Assembly (NCBI GenBank): GCA_021324635.1
Contig: JAJPIS010000110.1
Span: 1 to 62,120, forward strand
Direction: 5' to 3'
Length of the DNA: 62,120 bases
Source: Gemmatimonadota bacterium
GTDB lineage: Bacteria; Gemmatimonadota; Gemmatimonadetes; Gemmatimonadales; Gemmatimonadaceae
Position numbers and translations under genes: made by a program
Notes under the pieces: generated by a model
The model's input: the letters and a program-made list of their open reading frames with translations, nothing else
The model's database searches: none
Told to the model about the DNA's origin: nothing
In this document: one piece after another, positions 7,793-61,960 of the stretch
Layout of the letters: every line of letters starts with the position of its first letter
Numbering within the stretch: the stretch's first letter is position 1

Positions 7793-8992
7793 ATGCGGCT
7801 GGTCCATCTCTCAGACCTGCATCTCGGCTATCGCCAGTACCAGCGGCTCACCCCTGGCGGCATCAATCAGCGAGAGGCCGACGTCGCGCTCGCGTTCAAG
7901 CGCGCGATCGACGCAGTCATTGCCCTCGGACCCGACCTCGTCGTCGTCGCGGGCGATGTCTTTCACACCGTCCGCCCGACCAACCCCGCGATCCTCCACG
8001 CCTTCCAGCAGTTCGCGCGACTGCGGTCGGCGCTGCCGGAGGCGATCGTCGTCGTGGTCGCCGGCAATCACGATACACCGCGGGCGGCCGAGACCGGGTG
8101 TATCCTCCGGCTGTTTGCGCCGCTGGGGATGCAGGTCGTGGACGCGAGCCCGGAGCGGCTGAGCTTCCCCGACCGGCAGCTCTCGATCCTCGCCGTCCCC
8201 GATGCGGCGATCGGACAGTTGGCGCTGACGCCGGACCCGGGCGCCCGGTACAACGTCCTCGTGCTGCACGGGGAGGTTCAGGGAACGCTCCCGGGTGTGG
8301 CCGGGGCCGACCGGGCCACGGTGGAGATCACGCCCGAGGAGCTCGGGGCGGACCGGTGGACGTACGTGGCGCTGGGTCACTACCACGTGTACCGGCGGAT
8401 CGCCCCGAACGCGTACTACTCGGGCTCGCTGGAGTACACCAGCACCAATCCATGGGGTGAGCTGGTCGAGGAGCGGGAAGAGGGCATCCCGGGCAAGGGC
8501 ATCATCGAGCACGATCTGGCGACCGGAGCGCACCGGTTCCACCCCGTTGAGGCCCCGCGGGCGCTGGTCGATCTTCCGTCCCTCTCGGCGCGCGGCATGA
8601 TGGCGGCGGAGCTCGACGCCCGCATCCAGGAGCTCGTCGCAGGCTGTGAGGGGGGGATCGACGGGAAGATCGTCCGCGTGCTCGTGCGCGACATCCCCCG
8701 ACACATCCTGCGCGAGCTGGACCATCGCGCCCTCCGCGACTTTCGCCGGCGGGCGTTGCACTTCCAGCTCGACACGCGGCGCCCGGAGATGATCCGGCTT
8801 CACGGGCGCGGGGCGCCCGGCCGCCGGCCTTCGCTCGCCGAGATCGTGCGCGACAAGCTCCACGAGCGGTCGTTGGAGCCGGACATCGACCGGCTGGCGC
8901 TCGTCGATCTCGGTCTGCGGTACCTCGCGGAAGCCGAGGCCCTGAGCGCAGCCGCGGTCGCGATGGAAGGGCAGGGAGGGGCCGAGGTGTGA
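7793..8992 (+). CDS. sbcD: SbcD/Mre11-type DNA repair exonuclease
   Basis: Manganese-dependent phosphoesterase that processes double-strand ends with SbcC/Rad50. All calcineurin-type motifs are present: SDLHLGY (Asp8, His10), AGDVFH (about 53), AGNHDTP (about 90), VLHGE (about 160) and ALGHYHVY (about 194). 399 residues fits the family. ATG 7793 follows the preceding gene by 13 bp, and the stop overlaps the sbcC start (GTGTGA). In archaea mre11-rad50 is commonly next to herA-nurA, and the same arrangement is seen here. Confidence 0.93.
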   Translation: MRLVHLSDLHLGYRQYQRLTPGGINQREADVALAFKRAIDAVIALGPDLVVVAGDVFHTVRPTNPAILHAFQQFARLRSALPEAIVVVVAGNHDTPRAAETGCILRLFAPLGMQVVDASPERLSFPDRQLSILAVPDAAIGQLALTPDPGARYNVLVLHGEVQGTLPGVAGADRATVEITPEELGADRWTYVALGHYHVYRRIAPNAYYSGSLEYTSTNPWGELVEEREEGIPGKGIIEHDLATGAHRFHPVEAPRALVDLPSLSARGMMAAELDARIQELVAGCEGGIDGKIVRVLVRDIPRHILRELDHRALRDFRRRALHFQLDTRRPEMIRLHGRGAPGRRPSLAEIVRDKLHERSLEPDIDRLALVDLGLRYLAEAEALSAAAVAMEGQGGAEV

Positions 8993-11472
8993 AGCTCAAC
9001 AGCCTGCGCCTCGTGAACTTCCGCCAGCACGCCGACAGTCAGATCACGTTCGACGGCGGGCTGACCGGCATCATTGGTCCCAACGGATCGGGTAAGACGA
9101 CGATCCTCGAGGGGATCGCGTGGGCGCTCTACGGGAACAGCGCGGCGCGCGGGACCCGCGAGTCGCTTCGCTTCAATCGCGCGCCGGCGCGGGCGGCGGT
9201 TCGGGTCGAGCTCGACTTCGAGCTGGCCGGCCACCGGTATCGGGTCGTTCGCGGTCTCACCAACGCCGAGCTGTACCTCGACGGCGCGTCGGTCCCGATC
9301 GCGAACTCGATCACCGGCGTGACCGAGTTGCTTCAACGGCGGCTCGGGATGACCCGCACCGAGTTCTTCCACACGTACTTCACGGGGCAGAAGGACCTGA
9401 ACGTGATGGCGGCCATGGGGCCGTCGGATCGTGCCCGGTTCCTCTCCCGCGTGCTCGGATACGAGAAGCTGCGGACGGCCCAGGATCTCGTGCGCGATCG
9501 GCGCAAGGAGATCATGGCCAAGATCGCCGGCGTGCGGATGGGGATGCCGGACCGCGACACGGTGGAGCGCGGCCTGCTGGAGGCGGCGAGCCGGCTCGGG
9601 ACGGCCGAGCGCCGCCTCGCCGAGGCGGAGCGGCACGAGCGGGAAGCGGCCGCGGCGCTCGCGTCGGCGACGCCAGAGTGGGAACGAGTCCAGCGCGAGC
9701 GGGACCGGCTCCAGGAGCTCCTGACGGACCTCAAGGTCGCGGAGCGCGACGAGGAGGCGCTCGCCCGCGATGGCGAGCGGATCACCCGCGAGCTCGCCGA
9801 CGTCACCGCGGCGCGGGCCGAGCTCGAGCCGCTGCGCCGCGAGCTGGCGACCTTCCCCGGCGTCGTCGCCGAGCTTCAGCGGGCGGACGAGCTGTACCGG
9901 GAGGAAGGCCGCCGGCAGACGTTGCTCGAGGCCGCCCGTGCGCTCGACGATGAGTTGGCGCGCTTGCGCGAGCGGCGGTCACGGCTCGAGACGGCGCCGG
10001 CCCTCGAGGAGGAAGTCACTCTCTCGCTGGAGGCGCGGCGGCGGGAGCTCGAGGAGGCACTCGGCCAGCTCGAGGCGCGGCGGACGGAGTGGGTGCGCGA
10101 CCGCCAGGAGGCCGAGACCAAGCTTCAGGCGCTGCGCGCCCAGTACGCCGACGTCCGGCAGCAGCGCGAGCGTCTCATGAGTGCCGGCGAGGAGGGGACG
10201 TGCCCGACCTGCGCGCGCCCGCTCGGCGGTCACTACCGCACGGTGCTCGACCTGCTCGAGGAGCAGGCCGAAACCGTCCGCGTCGATGGGAATTATTTCA
10301 AGGCGCGGCTGGAACAGTTGGAGCAGATGCCGACCGACGTGCGCGCGCTCGACGAGCGGCGGCGGGCGCTGACGCAGGATGTCGGGACGTTGGAGCGAAA
10401 GCTGGCCAAGGTGCAGCTCGCGGTGCAGGAGTTCCAGCAGGTGGCGCGCGAGATCACGAGCAAGGAGCAGCGGCGCGGCGTGCTCGAGCGGGACATCGTG
10501 GCGATCCCGAGCGGGTACGACGCCGCCCGTCACGCGTATCTCAAGGCGGAGGCCGAGCGGCTGACGCCCCTCGACGCGCGGGCGGCGCGGTTGGGCGCGC
10601 TCGTCGAGCGCGAGCCGCAACTGGCGCGGGAGCGCTCGCGGGTCGAGGGCGCGGTGGCGGCCGTCTTCGCCCGGCTCAAGGCGATGCGCGCCCGCCGCGA
10701 CGCGATCCACTTCTCCGAGGCGACGTACCAGGCGGTGCGGGAGCGTCACGATCGCGCGGCGGCCGAGGCGCGGAGCAGCGAGTTCGCGGCCGCCACGGCG
10801 CGGATCGAGGTGACGGCCGCACGCGCCGAGATCCAGGCGGCCGAGGCACGCCGGCGAGAGCTCGACGAGGTGCAGGGCAAGCTCGATGGGCTGCACCGCG
10901 AGAAGCGCCTGCACGACGAGCTGGACCGGGCGTTCTCCGACATGCGGACCGATCTCAATTTCGCTCTGCGGCCCGAGGTCTCGGAGCTGGCGAGCAGCTT
11001 CCTCGTCGACCTGACCGACGGCCGCTACTCGGAGCTCGAGCTGGACGACCAGTACAACATCGTCGTGCTCGAGGACGGGGTCCCCAAGCCGGTCATCTCG
11101 GGCGGGGAAGAGGATCTCGCACACCTCGTGCTACGGCTCGCGATCTCGCAGATGATCGCCGATCGGGCGGGGCAGTCCTTCTCCCTGCTCATCCTGGACG
11201 AGGTGTTCGGCTCACTCGATGAGGCACGGCGCCACAACGTGATCGAGCTGTTGCGACGGCTGCACGATCGCTTCGAGCAGGTCATTCTCATCACCCACGT
11301 CGAGTCGGTGCGGGAGGGACTCGACCGGGTGATCGCCGTGCGGTACGACGAGGAGCGTGGATGCTCCGTGGTGGAGCAGACGGCGCCGGACGAGGAGCCC
11401 GCGGGGCTCCCACCCGACGCGGCGCCGGTCGGCGGCTCCGAGGCGGCCGCCGTCGCGAGCACGGCCGCATGA
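8989..11472 (+). CDS. sbcC: SbcC/Rad50-type SMC-like ATPase
   Basis: 827 residues. The N-terminal ABC half holds Walker A GPNGSGKTT (30-38) and a Q-loop region (FTGQKDLN). Long Glu/Arg/Leu-rich coiled coils run from about 180 to 650 on both sides of a zinc hook CPTC at residues 405-408. The C-terminal half has the ABC signature ISGGEED (about 703) and Walker B LLILDEVFGSLDE (about 733-745), with a D-loop after it. A 30-residue Ala/Pro-rich tail follows. It tethers DNA ends and gates SbcD. GTG 8989 overlaps the sbcD stop. The short coiled coil is closer to archaeal Rad50 than to the longer E. coli SbcC. Confidence 0.93.
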   Translation: MKLNSLRLVNFRQHADSQITFDGGLTGIIGPNGSGKTTILEGIAWALYGNSAARGTRESLRFNRAPARAAVRVELDFELAGHRYRVVRGLTNAELYLDGASVPIANSITGVTELLQRRLGMTRTEFFHTYFTGQKDLNVMAAMGPSDRARFLSRVLGYEKLRTAQDLVRDRRKEIMAKIAGVRMGMPDRDTVERGLLEAASRLGTAERRLAEAERHEREAAAALASATPEWERVQRERDRLQELLTDLKVAERDEEALARDGERITRELADVTAARAELEPLRRELATFPGVVAELQRADELYREEGRRQTLLEAARALDDELARLRERRSRLETAPALEEEVTLSLEARRRELEEALGQLEARRTEWVRDRQEAETKLQALRAQYADVRQQRERLMSAGEEGTCPTCARPLGGHYRTVLDLLEEQAETVRVDGNYFKARLEQLEQMPTDVRALDERRRALTQDVGTLERKLAKVQLAVQEFQQVAREITSKEQRRGVLERDIVAIPSGYDAARHAYLKAEAERLTPLDARAARLGALVEREPQLARERSRVEGAVAAVFARLKAMRARRDAIHFSEATYQAVRERHDRAAAEARSSEFAAATARIEVTAARAEIQAAEARRRELDEVQGKLDGLHREKRLHDELDRAFSDMRTDLNFALRPEVSELASSFLVDLTDGRYSELELDDQYNIVVLEDGVPKPVISGGEEDLAHLVLRLAISQMIADRAGQSFSLLILDEVFGSLDEARRHNVIELLRRLHDRFEQVILITHVESVREGLDRVIAVRYDEERGCSVVEQTAPDEEPAGLPPDAAPVGGSEAAAVASTAA

Positions 11473-13405: not shown

Positions 13406-13717
13406 GGCGCCAAGGAACGGGAACGGGTCCAACCTCGCGAGGGGGAAGGGTCGAGATGGCCCTCCGGCGGGACACTCCGGCCTCCACGTCTCCTCCCGTG
13501 CACGCAGCGGACCCCACCTGGTGCGTTCGCGCCACCGGCACCCTCCCCGGCACCCGCGAGGGCGTCGCGCTCGCGACTCGGCGCGATGAGCCCGGTCGCC
13601 GGTGCCGTCGCCGACGGGGGCCCGGGCTACTAACCGCGAGGCGCCCGGATCGGTACGTTTCGCGCCGCTCCCCGCGCGCCGCGGCGCGGCGTGCGACCCA
13701 TCAGGCGGAGACACGAC
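13406..13717. other. Divergent intergenic region, no gene seen
   Basis: This 312-bp gap separates the start of the MBL-fold gene (minus) from the esterase gene (plus). Frames through it give only Arg/Pro-rich shadow translations. I see no clear -10/-35 pair or hairpin beyond general GC-rich pairing; it probably carries both promoters. Confidence 0.4.
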
Positions 13718-15091
13718 ATGTCCCGAGCCCAGCCCACTCATCGAGCGCAGGTGCGGCGACCGGTGCGCTGGGCCACCGCCGTCGCGATGGCGACGGCACT
13801 GCGATCGGTGGGTGGCCAGGCGCCGGCGCCCGATGCGAGCCTCGTCGACTGGGTGCGCGCCGCCGCCATCCCCGTCCGGCCGGTGGATCAGCCTTACGTG
13901 GACTCCACGTTCACCTTCCTCGGACCGCTCGTGGGCCGCGCGCGGGTGCTCGCCATCGGGGAGCTCGTCCACGGCGCACACGAGCCGCTCGCGTTTCGGA
14001 ACGAGGTGATCCGGTACGCCGTGACACACCTCGGCGTCAGGGCGGTCGCGCTCGAGTCGGGGTTCACCGAGGCCCACACCATCGATGCGTTCATCCACGG
14101 CGGGCCGGGGGACATCGATACCGTCGTGCGGACGGGACTCACCTGGAACTTCGAGCGCTTGCCCGAGAATCGAGACCTCGTCCTCTGGCTCCGGACGTAC
14201 AACGCCCACGCACGGCAGAAGATCCGCTTTTACGGCCTGGACATCAGCGGGGCCGACGACGCGGGCATCATGCCGCGCGCCGCCGGCGCGGTCCGCACGA
14301 CGCTCGAGTACCTGGACCGCGTCGAGCCCGACGTCGACCGCGCGCGCCGAGCCCGCGTCCGCGGCCTCCTCGACCGCTTCCTACCCGCGCGCTACGCCGA
14401 GTACAGCGCGGACGAGCGTGACCTCCTCCGGACCACCCTCGAGCGCGCCTACGCGACGCTGCGCGCCGACTCGACCCGGTACAGCCACGCGACCTCACCG
14501 AGCCTGTACGCCTGGGAGACGCGGAACGCCTGGGAGGCCGTCCGGCTCAATGCGATGATGGCCGCCGGCATCGCCGACACCACCGCCATGACGCGCGCGG
14601 TCGTGAACGCGCGCGACTCCATGATGGCCGAGAATGTTCGATGGGTGCTCGCCCAGGTAGGCCCCACCGCCCGCGTGATCGTCTTCGCGCACAACGGTCA
14701 CGTGATGAACGTGGAGACGACCTTCGAGGGGCAACGGGTCGAGAGCCTGGGCCGATACCTCCGCGCGTGGGTGGGCAGCGCGCTCGTCGTGCTCGGCGCC
14801 GCGACCGGCGCGATCGTCGGCGGGACCGGTGGCATCGGCGGGTGGCTCGGCGACTCCGGGGTCGCGGTGGCATCTCCCGCGAGTTTCGCCGCACTGCTCG
14901 CCGGCGCAGGCCGGCCGACCTTCGTCCTCGACCGCCGAACCGGCGACCACCTGAGCGGAGTGGCGGCCGCGCTGGCGCGGCCCTGGCCCCTCCTCTTCGA
15001 TACACCTTCGGAGTTTTCGCTCGTCGTCCCCGACCAGGCGTTCGACGCGATCACGTACTTCGATCGCGTGACCCCGGCGAAGCTGCGGTAG
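13718..15091 (+). CDS. Erythromycin-esterase-family protein, exported
   Basis: 457 residues from ATG 13718, preceded by a good ribosome site (GGCGGAG, 7 bp before). An Arg-rich, then hydrophobic N-terminus (WATAVAMATALRSVGG) may be a signal peptide. Ere-family landmarks are GELVHGAHE near 81-89 (catalytic Glu/His region), ALESGF, RFYGLDISG and the late VFAHNGHV. The family hydrolyses macrolide lactones in EreA/EreB, but most members have unknown substrates, so resistance should not be assumed. Confidence 0.8.
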   Translation: MSRAQPTHRAQVRRPVRWATAVAMATALRSVGGQAPAPDASLVDWVRAAAIPVRPVDQPYVDSTFTFLGPLVGRARVLAIGELVHGAHEPLAFRNEVIRYAVTHLGVRAVALESGFTEAHTIDAFIHGGPGDIDTVVRTGLTWNFERLPENRDLVLWLRTYNAHARQKIRFYGLDISGADDAGIMPRAAGAVRTTLEYLDRVEPDVDRARRARVRGLLDRFLPARYAEYSADERDLLRTTLERAYATLRADSTRYSHATSPSLYAWETRNAWEAVRLNAMMAAGIADTTAMTRAVVNARDSMMAENVRWVLAQVGPTARVIVFAHNGHVMNVETTFEGQRVESLGRYLRAWVGSALVVLGAATGAIVGGTGGIGGWLGDSGVAVASPASFAALLAGAGRPTFVLDRRTGDHLSGVAAALARPWPLLFDTPSEFSLVVPDQAFDAITYFDRVTPAKLR

Positions 15092-15139: not shown

Positions 15140-16531
15140 TCACGGGAAGGGGCGCGGGCGCGGCTCGGGCCGCGGCCAGGGCTCGAACGCGTCCTTACCG
15201 GCGAGCGCCCGGACGGCCGTCTCCCGAACCACGGGATCACCCGAGCGGAGCAGGTCGGACAGCGCCTGCTCCGACCGGCCGCCGCACTTGACCAGGGCAC
15301 GAACGAGCGCCCGCCGGACCTCGGCGTCTCGTTCGGTGGCGAGCGCGTCGCGGATCGCCGGCAGCGCGCTCGAGTCGCCGAGCTGACCGACGGCCCAGGC
15401 GGCGTTCAGCCGCGCATCGGCATCCTCGTCCCGTAGCACCCGGATCAGGCCGGCGGGCGCCTTCCCGCCCCCGTCGTCGTCGCCCAGCTGGCCGATCGCC
15501 CACGCCGCCGTGCTCCGCACGCGCGCGCTGTGGTCGCGTCCGGCCGCCTCTCCGAGAACGTCGACGGCCGACCGGTCCTCGATCTGCCCCAACGCCCAGG
15601 CGGCGGTCTCGCGCACCTGGTCGTCGCCGTCGCCGCGGAGCGCCGTGACCAGGGCCGGTGCATCGCGCTTCGCCTCCATGTTGCCGATCGCCCAGGCGCT
15701 CATCTCCCGCACGCGCGGGTCACGGTCCTGCCCGAGCGCGGTCGCCAGCGCCGGCGCCCCCTCGCGCGCCTCGAGGTTGCCGAGCGCCCACGCCGCGACC
15801 CGGCGGACCGATGGCGCGGGGTCGTCGCGAAGCACGCGCACCAGCATCGCCGTCGCGCTCGTCGAATCCAGCCGCCCGACGGCCGCCACGACCGCGCGAC
15901 GCACCGTCGAGTCCTCGTCCCCGATCCGCTCCTCGAGCGGCGCGAGCGCCCGCCCGTTTTCCAGATGTCCGAGCGCCCAGGCGACGTTCGCACGCACCGC
16001 GGCCGCCGGATCGCGCAGCGTCTTGATGAGCGGGTCGACGGCGCTCGGCGGCTGCCCCAACCCGAGCCCGAACGCTGCCAGCGCGCGGAGCGCCGCATCG
16101 CCCGATGCGAGTCGCGCCACGAGCGCCGCCGCGACCCGCCCCGCCGTGTCGCCCCCGAGCAGGCGCACCGAGAGCTCGCGGACGCACGCGTCGTCGGATG
16201 CGAGCCCACCGAGCAGCCGATCCTCGTCGGCGACGCTGAACCGCCGCGACTCCTCGTGGCGACCGATGTCGGCCGCCGCCGCGGCGAGCGGCCGCGAGGG
16301 GGCGTCCGCCCAGTCGCCCCAGCCGCCGTTGGGGATGGTGCGGGCCGCGAGCGCACAGATCAGGGGCGGCGCGCCATGGGCAGCCGCGAGCAACGCCGCG
16401 ACGTCGACGGGCGTCGCCGGCGCTGCCGGGGCGCGACCGGGTGGCGCCGCCCCGACCGAGTGACCGAGCTCCGCCCGCATGCCGACGAGGACGACCGACG
16501 TCGCGGCGGCGAGACCGAAGAGATGGCGCAT
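15140..16531 (-). CDS. Secreted HEAT-repeat protein
   Basis: 463 residues from ATG 16531 (GGGAG ahead). The N-terminus MRHLFGLAAATSVVLVGM is a signal-peptide-like segment, so the protein is likely periplasmic or secreted. From about residue 125 it is a solenoid of roughly eleven 31-residue HEAT (PBS-lyase type) units, recognised by repeated AAWALG or RETAVRAL helices and D-x-x-x-x-VR turns. The last residues are Trp/Pro/Arg-rich (PWPRPEPRPRP), matching the tail of the neighbouring membrane peptidase. An operator-like sequence upstream (16569-16580) repeats the one before blaI. Inference: co-regulated partner or target of the BlaR1/HEAT protein. Confidence 0.85.
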   Translation of the reverse strand: MRHLFGLAAATSVVLVGMRAELGHSVGAAPPGRAPAAPATPVDVAALLAAAHGAPPLICALAARTIPNGGWGDWADAPSRPLAAAAADIGRHEESRRFSVADEDRLLGGLASDDACVRELSVRLLGGDTAGRVAAALVARLASGDAALRALAAFGLGLGQPPSAVDPLIKTLRDPAAAVRANVAWALGHLENGRALAPLEERIGDEDSTVRRAVVAAVGRLDSTSATAMLVRVLRDDPAPSVRRVAAWALGNLEAREGAPALATALGQDRDPRVREMSAWAIGNMEAKRDAPALVTALRGDGDDQVRETAAWALGQIEDRSAVDVLGEAAGRDHSARVRSTAAWAIGQLGDDDGGGKAPAGLIRVLRDEDADARLNAAWAVGQLGDSSALPAIRDALATERDAEVRRALVRALVKCGGRSEQALSDLLRSGDPVVRETAVRALAGKDAFEPWPRPEPRPRPFP

Positions 16532-16568
16532 GATGACTCCCGGGGTGACCTTCAGTCGTGGTGAAACG

Positions 16569-16580
16569 GTTGAAAAATCA
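16569..16580 (-). promoter_or_regulatory. Operator-like half-site upstream of the HEAT gene
   Basis: The 12-mer GTTGAAAAATCA here is identical to the left arm of the palindrome in front of blaI. It lies 38 bp upstream of ATG 16531, next to a possible -10 (TATGCT, minus strand, 16585-16580). A second arm is not obvious, so this may be a weaker half-site for the same BlaI-type repressor. Confidence 0.5.
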
Positions 16581-16622
16581 GCATACATCGGGTGACGGAT
16601 CGCCCACGCCGAGCCGATCCGA

Positions 16623-18797
16623 TCAGGGCGTGGGGCGTGGCTCGGGCCAGGGCCACGGCCACGGGCCGGCCGCCTCCCCACCCGCGAGGGCCCGCACCGC
16701 GACCGACCGGAGCCGCGCGTCCGGCGACTCGAGCAGCCCGCGGAGCGCGGTGACGGACGCCGGACCCGTGGCCGCGATCGCCCGAATCAGGGCCCGCTGT
16801 CCTTCCGGGTCCGACTCGGCGTGCAGCGCGGCCTCGAGCGCCGGCAGGGTCGTCGGGTCCTGGATCTGGAACAGCGCCCAGGCGGCAAGCCGCCGGGTCT
16901 CGCTGTCCCGGTCGCGCAGCATGCTGACGAGCGCGGCCGGTGCCTGCTTGGGGGCGATCGTGCCGAGCGCCCACGCCGCGCGGGAGCGCACGGCGACGCT
17001 CGAGTCCGACAGCGTGGCCACGAGCGCGTCGGCCGCGGGCTCCGCACCGAGGGTGCCGAGCGCCCAGGCGGCGGTCGCGCGGACGTCGTCGTCGCGATCG
17101 GCGTGAAGTGCGGCGACGAGCGCGTCGACCGCGTCGCGCCGCTCGTCGTGGCTGGCGAGCGACCAGGCGGCCATCTCCCGGACGCGCGCGTCGGCGTCCT
17201 GCCGGACGGCGGCAACGAGCGCATCGCCGCCCTCGCGCGACTCCGGGTACTGTTCCAGCCCCCACGCCGCGATCCGTCGCAGCGCTGCGCTACTGTCGCT
17301 GCGGAGCACCTTGGCCAGGAGGACCGGTCGCTCGTCGGGCTCCGCCCCCGCCCGGGCCTCCGCGACCGGCGCCGAGCGCGGGACAGCCGCTGACTGGTTA
17401 CGCGCGGGGCTCGCGACCGATGCCGTGGCCACTGTCGACCGCAGGCCGTGAGGCCACGCGGGACGAGCCGACGCGCGTCGACCATCGTCGTGCGGCTCGC
17501 CGGCCCGGGACGGCGCCCCCGCAGCGCTCGGGGCCGAGGCCTGCGCCGTGGAGGATGCGCCGGGGTCCGACCGCGGGGCGCCCGCTCGGCGCGTCGGGGC
17601 GGCCGCGGCGACCAGACCCGCACCCAGGGCCACCGAGGCTGCCATGACCATCCGCCGCCGGCGACTCGGCGCCGTGTGGGGCAGGTCGGGATCGAGGATC
17701 GCGAGCAGTCGGCCCTCGAGCTCGCGACGGCGCGCCATGGCCAGGGCCGCGGCCGGAACGGCGCTCGTCCGCAGGGCGCCACGGCGGACGCTCGTCACGA
17801 TCTCCAGCAGGTGCTCCGCATAGTCGCTCGCCCGTGTGCCACAGGCGAGGGCCAGGTCATCGCACGCCCGCTCGCTCTCGGCGCACATCCGCCGGGCGGC
17901 GACCCACACCAGCGGATGGAACCAGTAGCAGGCACAGGCGACCCGCCCCACGAGATGCCCGAGCACATCACGCCGCTGCACGTGCGCGAGCTCGTGGAGC
18001 AGGACAGCTCGACGCCGGTCGGTCGACCAGCCCTCGCACTCCTCCGGCAGGACGATCGTCGGGGCGCGCACCCCGCACGCGAACGGCATCCGCGTCTCGC
18101 CGCTCACCAGCAACTGCGGCAAGGCATCGAGTCCCATCCGGTCGGCGGCGTCCACCAGCGGCACCTGCCACGCGGGTCCGTCGAGCCGCCTGGCGCGGCG
18201 CACGATCGCCCGCACGGCCACGGCCGACCACACGAGTGATCCCAGGAGGCCGAGCGCCAGGGCCGCCCAGATCCCGACGATGAGGATCACGAGGGGTGTC
18301 GCGAGGGCCGCCGAGCGGGCGGCCGCGAGGGCGGCCGAGAGGAGCGAGGAGAAGCTCCGGACGTCGGTGGCGACATCACGGCGCTCGGTCGCCCTCCGTG
18401 CCGACCCGGTGCCCGCGTCAGCTGCGGAGCGGTCGGCGGGCGTAGACGCGCGCGCAGACGCGCGCGCATCCGCACTCACCGCCCCTGGCGCCGGCGCGAT
18501 CGATGGGAGGGGTGCCGTCGATCTGGCGTGTGCGGCCGGGGCGCGCGGTGGCATCGCGGGCAGCACCGGGACCGCGAGCGGCGTCCAGACGGCGAGCGCG
18601 GGGGCGAGGAGCACTCCCGCGAGCGCGACCTGCCAGACGAGGTGCCGCGCGCCGGCCGACCCGCGGCGGAGGAGCGCCGCCAGAAGGCACGCGGCGAGGA
18701 GGATGATCGTTGCCTTGGCGATCAGCGTCGCGGGACGGCTGTCCCAGACCGGTCCGAGCGCGAGCGGGGCGACGATGCGTGTGACGATGGTGACCAT
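16623..18797 (-). CDS. BlaR1-type M56 membrane peptidase fused to HEAT repeats
   Basis: 724 residues. Hydrophobic segments lie near 25-45, 53-72, 165-195 and 385-402. The M56 zinc site is LLHELAHVQRRD (His268, Glu269, His272) with a downstream acidic ligand in ESERACDDLA. In BlaR1/MecR1 the last membrane helix is followed by an extracellular penicillin-binding sensor; here that place (about 492-711) holds about seven HEAT units (RRIAAWGL, REMAAWSL, RATAAWAL, RSRAAWAL, RRLAAWAL and two weaker ones). The C-terminus is PWPWPWPEPRPTP. An Ala/Pro/Ser-rich insert spans about 80-135. It starts 6 bp after the blaI stop. Role by family: intramembrane signalling that leads to repressor cleavage; the ligand is unknown. 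Confidence 0.88.
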   Translation of the reverse strand: MVTIVTRIVAPLALGPVWDSRPATLIAKATIILLAACLLAALLRRGSAGARHLVWQVALAGVLLAPALAVWTPLAVPVLPAMPPRAPAAHARSTAPLPSIAPAPGAVSADARASARASTPADRSAADAGTGSARRATERRDVATDVRSFSSLLSAALAAARSAALATPLVILIVGIWAALALGLLGSLVWSAVAVRAIVRRARRLDGPAWQVPLVDAADRMGLDALPQLLVSGETRMPFACGVRAPTIVLPEECEGWSTDRRRAVLLHELAHVQRRDVLGHLVGRVACACYWFHPLVWVAARRMCAESERACDDLALACGTRASDYAEHLLEIVTSVRRGALRTSAVPAAALAMARRRELEGRLLAILDPDLPHTAPSRRRRMVMAASVALGAGLVAAAAPTRRAGAPRSDPGASSTAQASAPSAAGAPSRAGEPHDDGRRASARPAWPHGLRSTVATASVASPARNQSAAVPRSAPVAEARAGAEPDERPVLLAKVLRSDSSAALRRIAAWGLEQYPESREGGDALVAAVRQDADARVREMAAWSLASHDERRDAVDALVAALHADRDDDVRATAAWALGTLGAEPAADALVATLSDSSVAVRSRAAWALGTIAPKQAPAALVSMLRDRDSETRRLAAWALFQIQDPTTLPALEAALHAESDPEGQRALIRAIAATGPASVTALRGLLESPDARLRSVAVRALAGGEAAGPWPWPWPEPRPTP

Positions 18798-18803
18798 CGG
18801 TGC

Positions 18804-19223
18804 TCATCTCCCGCGCTGCCGCGCGCGCTCGATCGTTTTCTGGAGTCGTGCCAGCTCATCACCGCTCATGGCGACATCCGACATCCGCAGCAGCGCGGCG
18901 ACGGCCTGCTCCGGGGATCCCGCGAAGTACGTGCGAACCACGTGTGCCAACACATCGTGTCGAGCCGTCTCGGTCGCCACCGAGGGGGAATAGACGTAGC
19001 GGGGCCCGTCCTCCTTATGGCGTACGAGTCCGCGCTCGCCGAGGATTCGAAGGACCGAGCGGACGGCGGAGTAGGTCGGGGGATCGGGGAGCTCGGCCAT
19101 GATCTCGGCGACCGTCGCCTCGCCGCGGCGGTGCAGGATATCCATCACCTGCCGCTCGCGGCGGGAGAGCGTCGTCGGCGCCGGCGGAGATGTCGGCGCG
19201 GGTCGCGGCGAAGGACGGCGCAT
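18804..19223 (-). CDS. blaI: BlaI/MecI/CopY-family repressor
   Basis: 139 residues. A winged helix is visible from about 18 to 85 (LSRRERQVMDILHRRGEATV, then AEIMAELPDPPTYSAVRSVLRILGERGLV and the wing RYVYSP), followed by a dimerisation region (VLAHVVRTYFAGSPEQAVAALL). Such repressors bind palindromes as dimers and are inactivated by the paired BlaR1 peptidase, whose gene follows after 6 bp. The palindrome at 19254-19284 is the probable autoregulatory operator. Confidence 0.92.
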   Translation of the reverse strand: MRRPSPRPAPTSPPAPTTLSRRERQVMDILHRRGEATVAEIMAELPDPPTYSAVRSVLRILGERGLVRHKEDGPRYVYSPSVATETARHDVLAHVVRTYFAGSPEQAVAALLRMSDVAMSGDELARLQKTIERARQRGR

Positions 19224-19253
19224 GGGACCGTTGGGCTGAAGGGGGCACGGTGT

Positions 19254-19284
19254 GTTGAAAAATCACCTGTGCTGATATTTCAAC
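19254..19284 (-). promoter_or_regulatory. Palindromic operator upstream of blaI
   Basis: Arms GTTGAAAAATCA (19254-19265) and TGATATTTCAAC (19273-19284) pair at 11 of 12 positions around a 7-bp centre. The site lies 31 bp upstream of the blaI start. On the minus strand a TTGACG at 19303-19298 is followed 17 bp later by AAATAT inside the palindrome, a weak but plausible promoter that a bound repressor would cover. The same 12-mer recurs before the HEAT gene. Confidence 0.65.
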
Positions 19285-19478
19285 AGTGCACGGCGCCCGT
19301 CAAGGGGGGGCGGCGTCCCGCCGTCGGCCGCGTCCTTGGGGTCACCCGCAGGAGCATGACCGCGGGTCGGGCGTGGCACGGTGCACGCATCTCGGATACC
19401 GTCGATCCCGGGAGGCGGACGGCGGCGCGGCCGCCCCGCGGGCCCGGGCGTTGGGTCCCTTCAGCGGAGAGCGTCTGC

Positions 19479-61483: not shown

Positions 61484-61556
61484 GCCGACGTAGCTCAATT
61501 GGCAGAGCAGCTGATTTGTAATCAGCAGGTTGCGAGTTCGATTCTCGCCGTCGGCT
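61484..61556 (+). tRNA. tRNA-Thr (TGT)
   Basis: Acceptor GCCGACG pairs with CGTCGGC; the anticodon arm GCTGA-TTTGTAA-TCAGC carries TGT; T arm GCGAGTTCGATTCTCGC. CCA is not encoded. Confidence 0.96.
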
Positions 61557-61599
61557 CTGTCGCGAGGGGCGGGGCCGACGGCGCGGGAGCTGGGATTGT

Positions 61600-61683
61600 G
61601 GTGGGGTACCCAAGCGGCCAACGGGAGCAGACTGTAAATCTGCCGGCTTCACGCCTTCGAAGGTTCGAATCCTTCCCCCACCA
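61600..61683 (+). tRNA. tRNA-Tyr (GTA)
   Basis: Acceptor GGTGGGG pairs with CCCCACC; anticodon arm GCAGA-CTGTAAA-TCTGC carries GTA; a long variable arm (about 84 nt total) is typical of tRNA-Tyr. CCA is not encoded. Confidence 0.95.
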
Positions 61684-61746
61684 CTCGGAAGGAACTCGGA
61701 GATCGGGAATCCGGCGGTCACCGAACGAGATGTGCAGGGGAGTGCC

Positions 61747-61819
61747 GCGGGAGTAGCTCAGTTGGTAGAGCGCAAGCCTTCCAAGCTTGATGTCGCGGGT
61801 TCGAGCCCCGTCTCCCGCT
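61747..61819 (+). tRNA. tRNA-Gly (TCC)
   Basis: Acceptor GCGGGAG pairs with CTCCCGC; anticodon arm CAAGC-CTTCCAA-GCTTG carries TCC. CCA is not encoded. Confidence 0.95.
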
Positions 61820-61887
61820 TCGGCGTGATGCGCCGACGAGACAGGAGTGAGGAGAAAGGAGAGAGGAGACGGAGAGGGGTCGCGGGC

Positions 61888-61960
61888 GCTCGCGTAGCTC
61901 AGTTGGTAGAGCACACCCTTGGTAAGGGTGAGGTCATCGGTTCAATCCCGATCGCGAGCT
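61888..61960 (+). tRNA. tRNA-Thr (GGT)
   Basis: Acceptor GCTCGCG pairs with CGCGAGC; anticodon arm CACCC-TTGGTAA-GGGTG carries GGT. It is 66 bp before tuf. CCA is not encoded. Confidence 0.95.

Follow-up and report, generated by a model that had tools for sequence, protein, structure and literature searches.

Gene content of the locus

The window (the whole stretch of DNA analysed here, 62,120 nt) derives from a Gemmatimonadota bacterium (assembly GCA_021324635.1, contig JAJPIS010000110.1, positions 1-62,120 of the forward strand) and carries a cassette at positions 15140-19285. On the minus strand, from 19285 downwards, the cassette is composed of two palindromes, a blaI-type gene, a gene encoding an M56 protease fused to HEAT repeats (M56-HEAT), a third palindrome and a gene encoding a second, predicted exported HEAT protein (Table 1). 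The upper limit of 19284, set earlier by a reading of the DNA from its letters alone (the sequence-only reading), proved to be the edge of a real repressor-site-like palindrome.

Table 1. Positions of the cassette features in the window, in minus-strand order
Feature	Position	Strand	Basis
Operator-like palindrome O1, TGTTGAAATATCAGCA, upstream of blaI	19270..19285	-	
Operator-like palindrome O2, AGGTGATTTTTCAACA, upstream of blaI	19253..19268	-	
BlaI/MecI-type winged-helix repressor, 139 aa	18804..19223	-	Pfam Penicillinase_R 4.7e-26
M56 protease with HEAT ectodomain, 724 aa	16623..18797	-	Pfam Peptidase_M56 + HEAT_2
Membrane-protease module, residues 1-405, four helices, HELAH 268-272, E309xxxD313	17583..18797	-	Relatives' alignment, helix prediction
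HEAT ectodomain, residues 490-704, seven units, pLDDT mostly >90	16686..17330	-	Unit scan, predicted model
C-terminal tail of the M56-HEAT protein, GPWPWPWPEPRPTP	16626..16667	-	
Operator-like site O3, TGCTGATTTTTCAACC, upstream of the exported HEAT gene	16568..16583	-	
Exported HEAT protein (predicted), 463 aa, signal-peptide-like N-terminus	15140..16531	-	HEAT_2 3.7e-63, ~10 units
N-terminal cap peculiar to the exported protein, invariant Cys59 + Cys116	16128..16420	-	Relatives' alignment
C-terminal tail of the exported HEAT protein, EPWPRPEPRPRPFP	15143..15184	-	

The repressor scored 91.8 bits against the PF03965 profile (cut-off 22.6) and belongs to this family; its gene adjoins the M56 gene in nearly all relatives. 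For the exported HEAT protein, the ATG at 16531 was retained as the best start, and the GTG at 16681 given in the mechanical ORF list was judged unlikely. Export was judged from the N-terminus by eye.

Outside the cassette, a gene for an Erythromycin-esterase family protein (13691-15091, plus strand; PF05139, 3.2e-46) converges on the exported HEAT gene, with the two gene ends close together, and no operator-like site was found near it. The window also contains a gene for an SMC/SbcC-type ATPase (8989-11472, plus strand; SMC_N 1.1e-20) and, at its right edge, a four-tRNA cluster (61484-61960, plus strand; Thr(tgt), Tyr, Gly, Thr(ggt)).

The M56 protease and its membrane module

The M56-HEAT protein is a member of the Peptidase_M56 family (PF05569, residues 161-348, E=3.7e-27; 95.7 bits, cut-off 31), and HEAT_2 was matched behind this domain (E=7.6e-30, Pfam). 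The zinc-site residues H268, E269, H272, E309 and D313 (HExxH plus ExxxD) were invariant in 35 relatives. Membrane helices were predicted at residues 25-43, 53-71, 169-187 and 383-401; four helices were found in nearly all relatives, and the HELAH motif sits between the third and the fourth. A profile of the membrane-protease part matched the cryo-EM structures of Staphylococcus aureus BlaR1 (8exs/8exp, E=2e-8), and the predicted model of the M56 protein was aligned to 8exs over 256 residues (VIA Z 19.1, rmsd 4.5). With Foldseek, the top 50 matches of this model were HEAT and armadillo chains only, and BlaR1 appeared on the second structural comparison. The zinc site and the BlaR1-like membrane helices noticed in the sequence-only reading are thereby borne out. 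The protein gave the single M56 match of its own genome at E <= 0.001.

With the NCBIfam model blaR1_generic, the M56 protein scored 70 bits, below the cut-off of 400. No transpeptidase, penicillin-binding or class-D lactamase family was found in it with Pfam and NCBIfam up to E=1. The region that follows the fourth helix, which had been read as HEAT repeats in place of a penicillin-binding domain, contains seven units and is HEAT both by profiles and by predicted fold; the possibility that it belonged to the transpeptidase family was thus set aside.

In BlaR1, both ends lie outside (Nout/Cout), the protease lies inside and BlaI is cleaved directly (PMC9834060). Because the four helices are conserved, and because the module is homologous and could be aligned to BlaR1, the HEAT array of the M56 protein is predicted to lie outside the cytoplasm; this is where the sequence-only reading had put it, and a cytoplasmic HEAT region is not what the helices and the BlaR1 alignment indicate.

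HEAT arrays of the sensor and the exported protein

The unit scan of the M56 protein gave seven HEAT units at residues 494-710, and the linker that joins the membrane module to the ectodomain (residues about 405-483) was predicted to be disordered. Both proteins carry tandem units with a predicted solenoid fold, which places them among the HEAT solenoids, and the nearest solved folds of both arrays were alphaRep/HEAT-like solenoids (7q1f, Z about 27 against the M56 model). The secreted neighbour built of HEAT units, also part of the sequence-only reading, was recovered by the domain match, the unit count and the signal-peptide-like N-terminus given in Table 1, its export being predicted. The two cysteines of its cap would fit an extracytoplasmic disulfide.

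The sensor ectodomain and the exported array were 48% identical over 219 residues (178 bits), and any other HEAT protein of the same genome reached 62 bits at most in the same comparison. In a tree of the C-terminal parts, 22 of the 23 ectodomains were placed opposite all 23 exported arrays (fork support 93/90), the exception being the ectodomain of locus L043, a long branch. Since the tree has two nearly separate clades, the arrays are most likely ancient paralogues that separated before these genera and have not been homogenised since. According to the branch lengths, the exported HEAT protein evolves more slowly than its M56 partner.

C-terminal tails and the tryptophan position

Both proteins end in the same Pro/Trp/Arg tail, which is of the GPWPWPWPEPRPFP type in the sensor and of the DPWPWPWPRPRPFP type in the exported protein. 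The frame of the exported tail (P-W-P-x-P-x-P-R-P-R-P-x-P) was invariant in 24 relatives, and across the genome the tail pattern was found solely at the ends of these two genes. The f4 relatives have the tail on the exported protein only, and it is therefore probably older there than on the sensor. In divergent triads, the tail is missing from the M56 protein or from both proteins. The tail was predicted at low to middling confidence (pLDDT about 55-69).

The residue that follows the paired alanines of HEAT helix B (the AAW position) is tryptophan in both proteins. Six such residues did not vary among the 24 exported orthologues, and the same holds for four scored residues in all 24 ectodomains. 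In the other HEAT proteins of the genome, tryptophan is almost absent from this position. When the motif was matched to the published alphaRep module, the AAW position corresponded to position 26, which is variable and part of the alphaRep binding surface (PMC3754942). By analogy, the invariant tryptophan would face the HEAT groove. Because a groove of this kind would be Trp-lined, an extended, perhaps proline-rich peptide is a reasonable first guess for its ligand.

Operator-like palindromes

Mechanical palindrome searches at single loci were noisy before a shared motif was recognised. This motif, the 16-bp palindrome TGYTGAWWWWTCARCA, occurs before blaI, in most cases as two copies, and as a single copy before the exported HEAT gene; the centre-to-centre spacing of O1 and O2 is 17 bp, the same as in most relatives. 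Among the M56-HEAT loci, the site was present in 21 of 30 blaI upstream regions (0.3 expected) and in 22 of 30 intergenic regions before the exported gene (0.2 expected; mononucleotide shuffles in both cases). The loci that lacked it before the exported gene were of divergent types, plus locus L045, whose site lies just beyond the stretch scanned and was found in the genome-wide site list. The window contains three sites against 0.03 expected (dinucleotide shuffles), and the pattern TGATTTTTCAAC, with one mismatch at most, occurs just three times in the 4.09-Mb genome, each time inside the cassette.

Genome-wide sites were searched by pattern; a stricter 16-bp rescan was set aside, having lost many known sites because the outer bases vary. 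The degenerate site was found in 23 of the 25 genomes with an M56-HEAT locus (the remaining two carry divergent types) and in 4 of the 20 family members in which this M56 had no match; of these four, G068 has a divergent triad. G027, G057 and G062, family members likewise without such a match, each have one or two perfect operator-like sites. The reversed-pattern control gave almost no matches. The operator known from Firmicutes differs from this palindrome. From their position and their co-distribution with the cassette, we infer that the palindromes are putative binding sites of the BlaI-type repressor.

Further sites and the DUF5916 genes

Outside the cassette, the first 15 genomes that carry it have about one more site-bearing locus each. 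The commonest targets were DUF5916/CBM9 genes, preceded by a further site in four genomes (G021, G212, G143 and G246); by sequence, the further site of G023 precedes the apparent 5' end of a DUF5916/CBM9-type gene. Two further sites lie before MacB/FtsX permeases, one (L090) just before a beta-lactamase-family (PF00144) serine hydrolase, and others before genes for a dienelactone-hydrolase-like protein and an M1-like peptidase; one site within a recQ-like frame may be due to chance. The genome of the window has only a pair of extra sites, 23 bp apart (contig C59, 2573-2609; L088), which precede an exported alpha/beta-hydrolase-like gene whose frame stops early.

DUF5916 genes adjoin the cassette in six loci and stand beside nine other BlaI-M56 loci as well, although the family numbers only about four copies in a genome (58 matches, counting fragments, in 14 genomes). 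DUF5916/CBM9 genes were seen beside BlaI-M56 pairs of other types in L053, L054, L057, L058, L060, L063 (first M56) and L152. As judged from gene neighbourhoods, the association of the uncharacterised DUF5916 family with M56 switches extends past the HEAT type seen in the window. Apart from DUF5916 and MacB-type permeases, the neighbour genes of the cassette loci followed no rule. No paper on DUF5916 was found among the open-access papers searched.

Distribution and conservation

A search with the M56 part gave matches in 101 of 298 Gemmatimonadota genomes, the nearest group being M56-HEAT. Complete pairs were present in 23 loci, and there the M56-HEAT gene is directly followed by the gene for the exported HEAT protein. 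The N-terminal cap served as a marker for the exported protein beyond HEAT alone, and was found in 45 of 395 genomes of the phylum, from 25 genera; in nearly all the extra loci that were read, the gene with this cap has an M56-HEAT gene, or the end of one, as its neighbour. These counts are of loci, which are not all independent, and some loci are from the same genome (e.g. L002 and L158). The same exported HEAT gene, together with an M56 gene end, recurs at both ends of one contig (L149/L150, G227:C140), a duplication that is probably an assembly artefact.

Exported HEAT genes with the Pro/Trp tail also stand alone (L151, 6281-7681; L155, 5594-6949), with no M56 or BlaI gene in the stretch read. 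The weak cap match of L154 looks like another HEAT gene. Divergent triads (BlaI, M56-HEAT and HEAT protein) without the Trp tail were found in L152, L153, L162 and L056. Two genomes of the window's own genus are without the cassette, which is therefore dispensable.

No M56-HEAT fusion was found outside Gemmatimonadota in one species-genome scan, the reach of which was near relatives only; the matches in Acidobacteriota and Opitutia were M56 proteins without recognised HEAT units. The conservation across genera by which the sequence-only reading proposed to judge the arrangement is present, the triad recurring in dozens of genomes, so that it cannot be put down to chance. The cassette is of the M56/BlaI kind yet is not BlaR1, and its HEAT-sensor form is new and to date met in Gemmatimonadota only.

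Proposed mechanism and alternatives

The cassette is a conserved gene-control switch of soil-dwelling Gemmatimonadota, built like BlaI-BlaR1 but with an outside sensor of HEAT repeats, and it points to an undescribed cell-envelope signalling system. We consider it likely that the cassette works by regulated proteolysis in the manner of BlaI-BlaR1, with a Trp-lined HEAT solenoid in place of the drug-binding ectodomain and the exported paralogue as the main output. In the resting state, the palindromes that precede blaI-M56 and the exported HEAT gene would be occupied by the BlaI-type repressor. The signal would arise beyond the inner membrane, either from a ligand that binds in the HEAT groove or from an altered filling of the groove; the four-helix M56 module would relay it and would then cleave the repressor. 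The operon and the exported HEAT protein would be derepressed and, in many relatives, so would one more gene for an envelope or exported protein, most often DUF5916/CBM9. Given its paralogy with the sensor, the exported protein most likely has the same target, which it might neutralise, sequester or present. The sensor of BlaR1 resembles class-D lactamases (PMC7593790). By this analogy, the simplest mechanism would be that both HEAT proteins recognise one extracytoplasmic thing, which the sensor reports and the exported protein deals with.

The sequence-only reading had further supposed that the two arrays interact outside the membrane, or bind a common ligand, and so control repressor cleavage. 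The linkage of the two proteins in one switch gained from the operator-like sites that they share, their close paralogy and their common tail; that contact between them, or one ligand for both, triggers cleavage of BlaI is something we can only infer. The alternatives that follow are compatible with the core switch, and our confidence in them overlaps with that in the switch.

The first alternative, which we entertain tentatively while leaning against it, is feedback: the exported HEAT protein would act as a brake or co-receptor rather than as an effector, docked on the M56 ectodomain and keeping the protease off until a client of its own is bound. A comparable action on CpxA has been proposed for periplasmic CpxP. 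The adjoining genes, the operator-like site and the C-terminal tail common to both, and the paralogy of the arrays are consistent with docking, and the exported gene appears to be under the switch itself, a requirement of negative feedback. HEAT-like arrays can also bind each other, as the alphaRep pair A3/bA3-2 does through its concave faces (PMC3754942). Against this alternative, the exported genes without a neighbouring M56 gene (L151, L155) mildly suggest a function of their own, and the exported protein is the slower-evolving partner.

It is possible, if doubtful, that the shared tail is itself the natural occupant of the groove: the Pro/Trp/Arg tail would lie along the Trp ladder of its own protein or of the partner, and an envelope peptide or proline-rich ligand would signal by displacing it. 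The armadillo groove of importin-alpha holds extended peptides in this way of binding. The invariant AAW tryptophans of both arrays (six and four), rare in the other HEAT units of the genome and placed at the alphaRep binding-surface position 26, argue for such an exchange, as do the invariant tail frame and its confinement to these two genes; the low to middling pLDDT of the tail and the divergent triads that lack it on the M56 protein or on both argue against it. More doubtful still is the fuller form of this idea, in which the matched, Trp-laddered grooves would hold their own or each other's tails until an extracytoplasmic peptide displaced a tail and the M56 protease fired; we know of no peptide-displacement receptor of this kind in bacteria.

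It seems to us unlikely that the tail serves to sort or anchor the two proteins (to the wall, the outer membrane or the surface), with the HEAT arrays as generic scaffolds and both proteins held at one place. The location of the tail at the extreme C-terminus of both paralogues and its seemingly greater age on the exported protein would suit such a role, but it occurs in only two genes of the genome, unlike general sorting signals, and the M56 protein is already held in the membrane. An ordinary BlaR1-type beta-lactam response, with HEAT merely replacing the sensor and a beta-lactamase controlled elsewhere, is highly improbable: the site before the PF00144 serine hydrolase of L090 would fit it, but profile searches gave no penicillin-binding domain, the only further sites of the window's genome precede the broken hydrolase-like gene, and the sites of other genomes mostly precede genes for DUF5916 proteins, MacB/FtsX permeases and other hydrolases.

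Comparison with known systems

To our knowledge, the BlaI-BlaR1 pair is known almost solely as a beta-lactam switch, and no paper joining BlaR1 with HEAT repeats was found among the open-access papers searched. If the proposed switch is right, M56 would serve generally as a core for signalling across the membrane, on which the sensor can be exchanged, and the principle that the sensor is a copy of the effector would extend past beta-lactams. With its small predicted regulon and exact operator-like motif, the switch is directly testable.

As in BlaI-BlaR1 and MecI-MecR1 of Staphylococcus and Bacillus, a BlaI-type repressor and an M56 protease are encoded together. The protease shares with BlaR1 the four-helix membrane module, the HExxH and ExxxD motifs and an ectodomain placed after the last helix, and the cassette shares with BlaI-BlaR1 the palindromic sites before the operon and the output gene, as well as a sensor that resembles the exported output. 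In contrast, the sensor of the cassette is a HEAT solenoid, whereas those of BlaR1 and MecR1 are class-D-lactamase-like; its output is a predicted exported HEAT protein instead of a lactamase or PBP2a, and its palindrome differs. The closest folds are the alphaRep/HEAT-like solenoids (MTH187 and the PBS lyase CpcE-CpcF), among which CpcE-CpcF (5n3u) consists of two HEAT proteins bound to each other; alphaRep, MTH187 and CpcE-CpcF are cytoplasmic or artificial, whereas the arrays of the cassette are predicted to be exported, Trp-lined and Pro/Trp-tailed. In CpxP-CpxA, a small exported partner is likewise controlled by the sensor's own pathway, but in the cassette the partner is paralogous to the ectodomain, and a protease takes the place of the sensor kinase.
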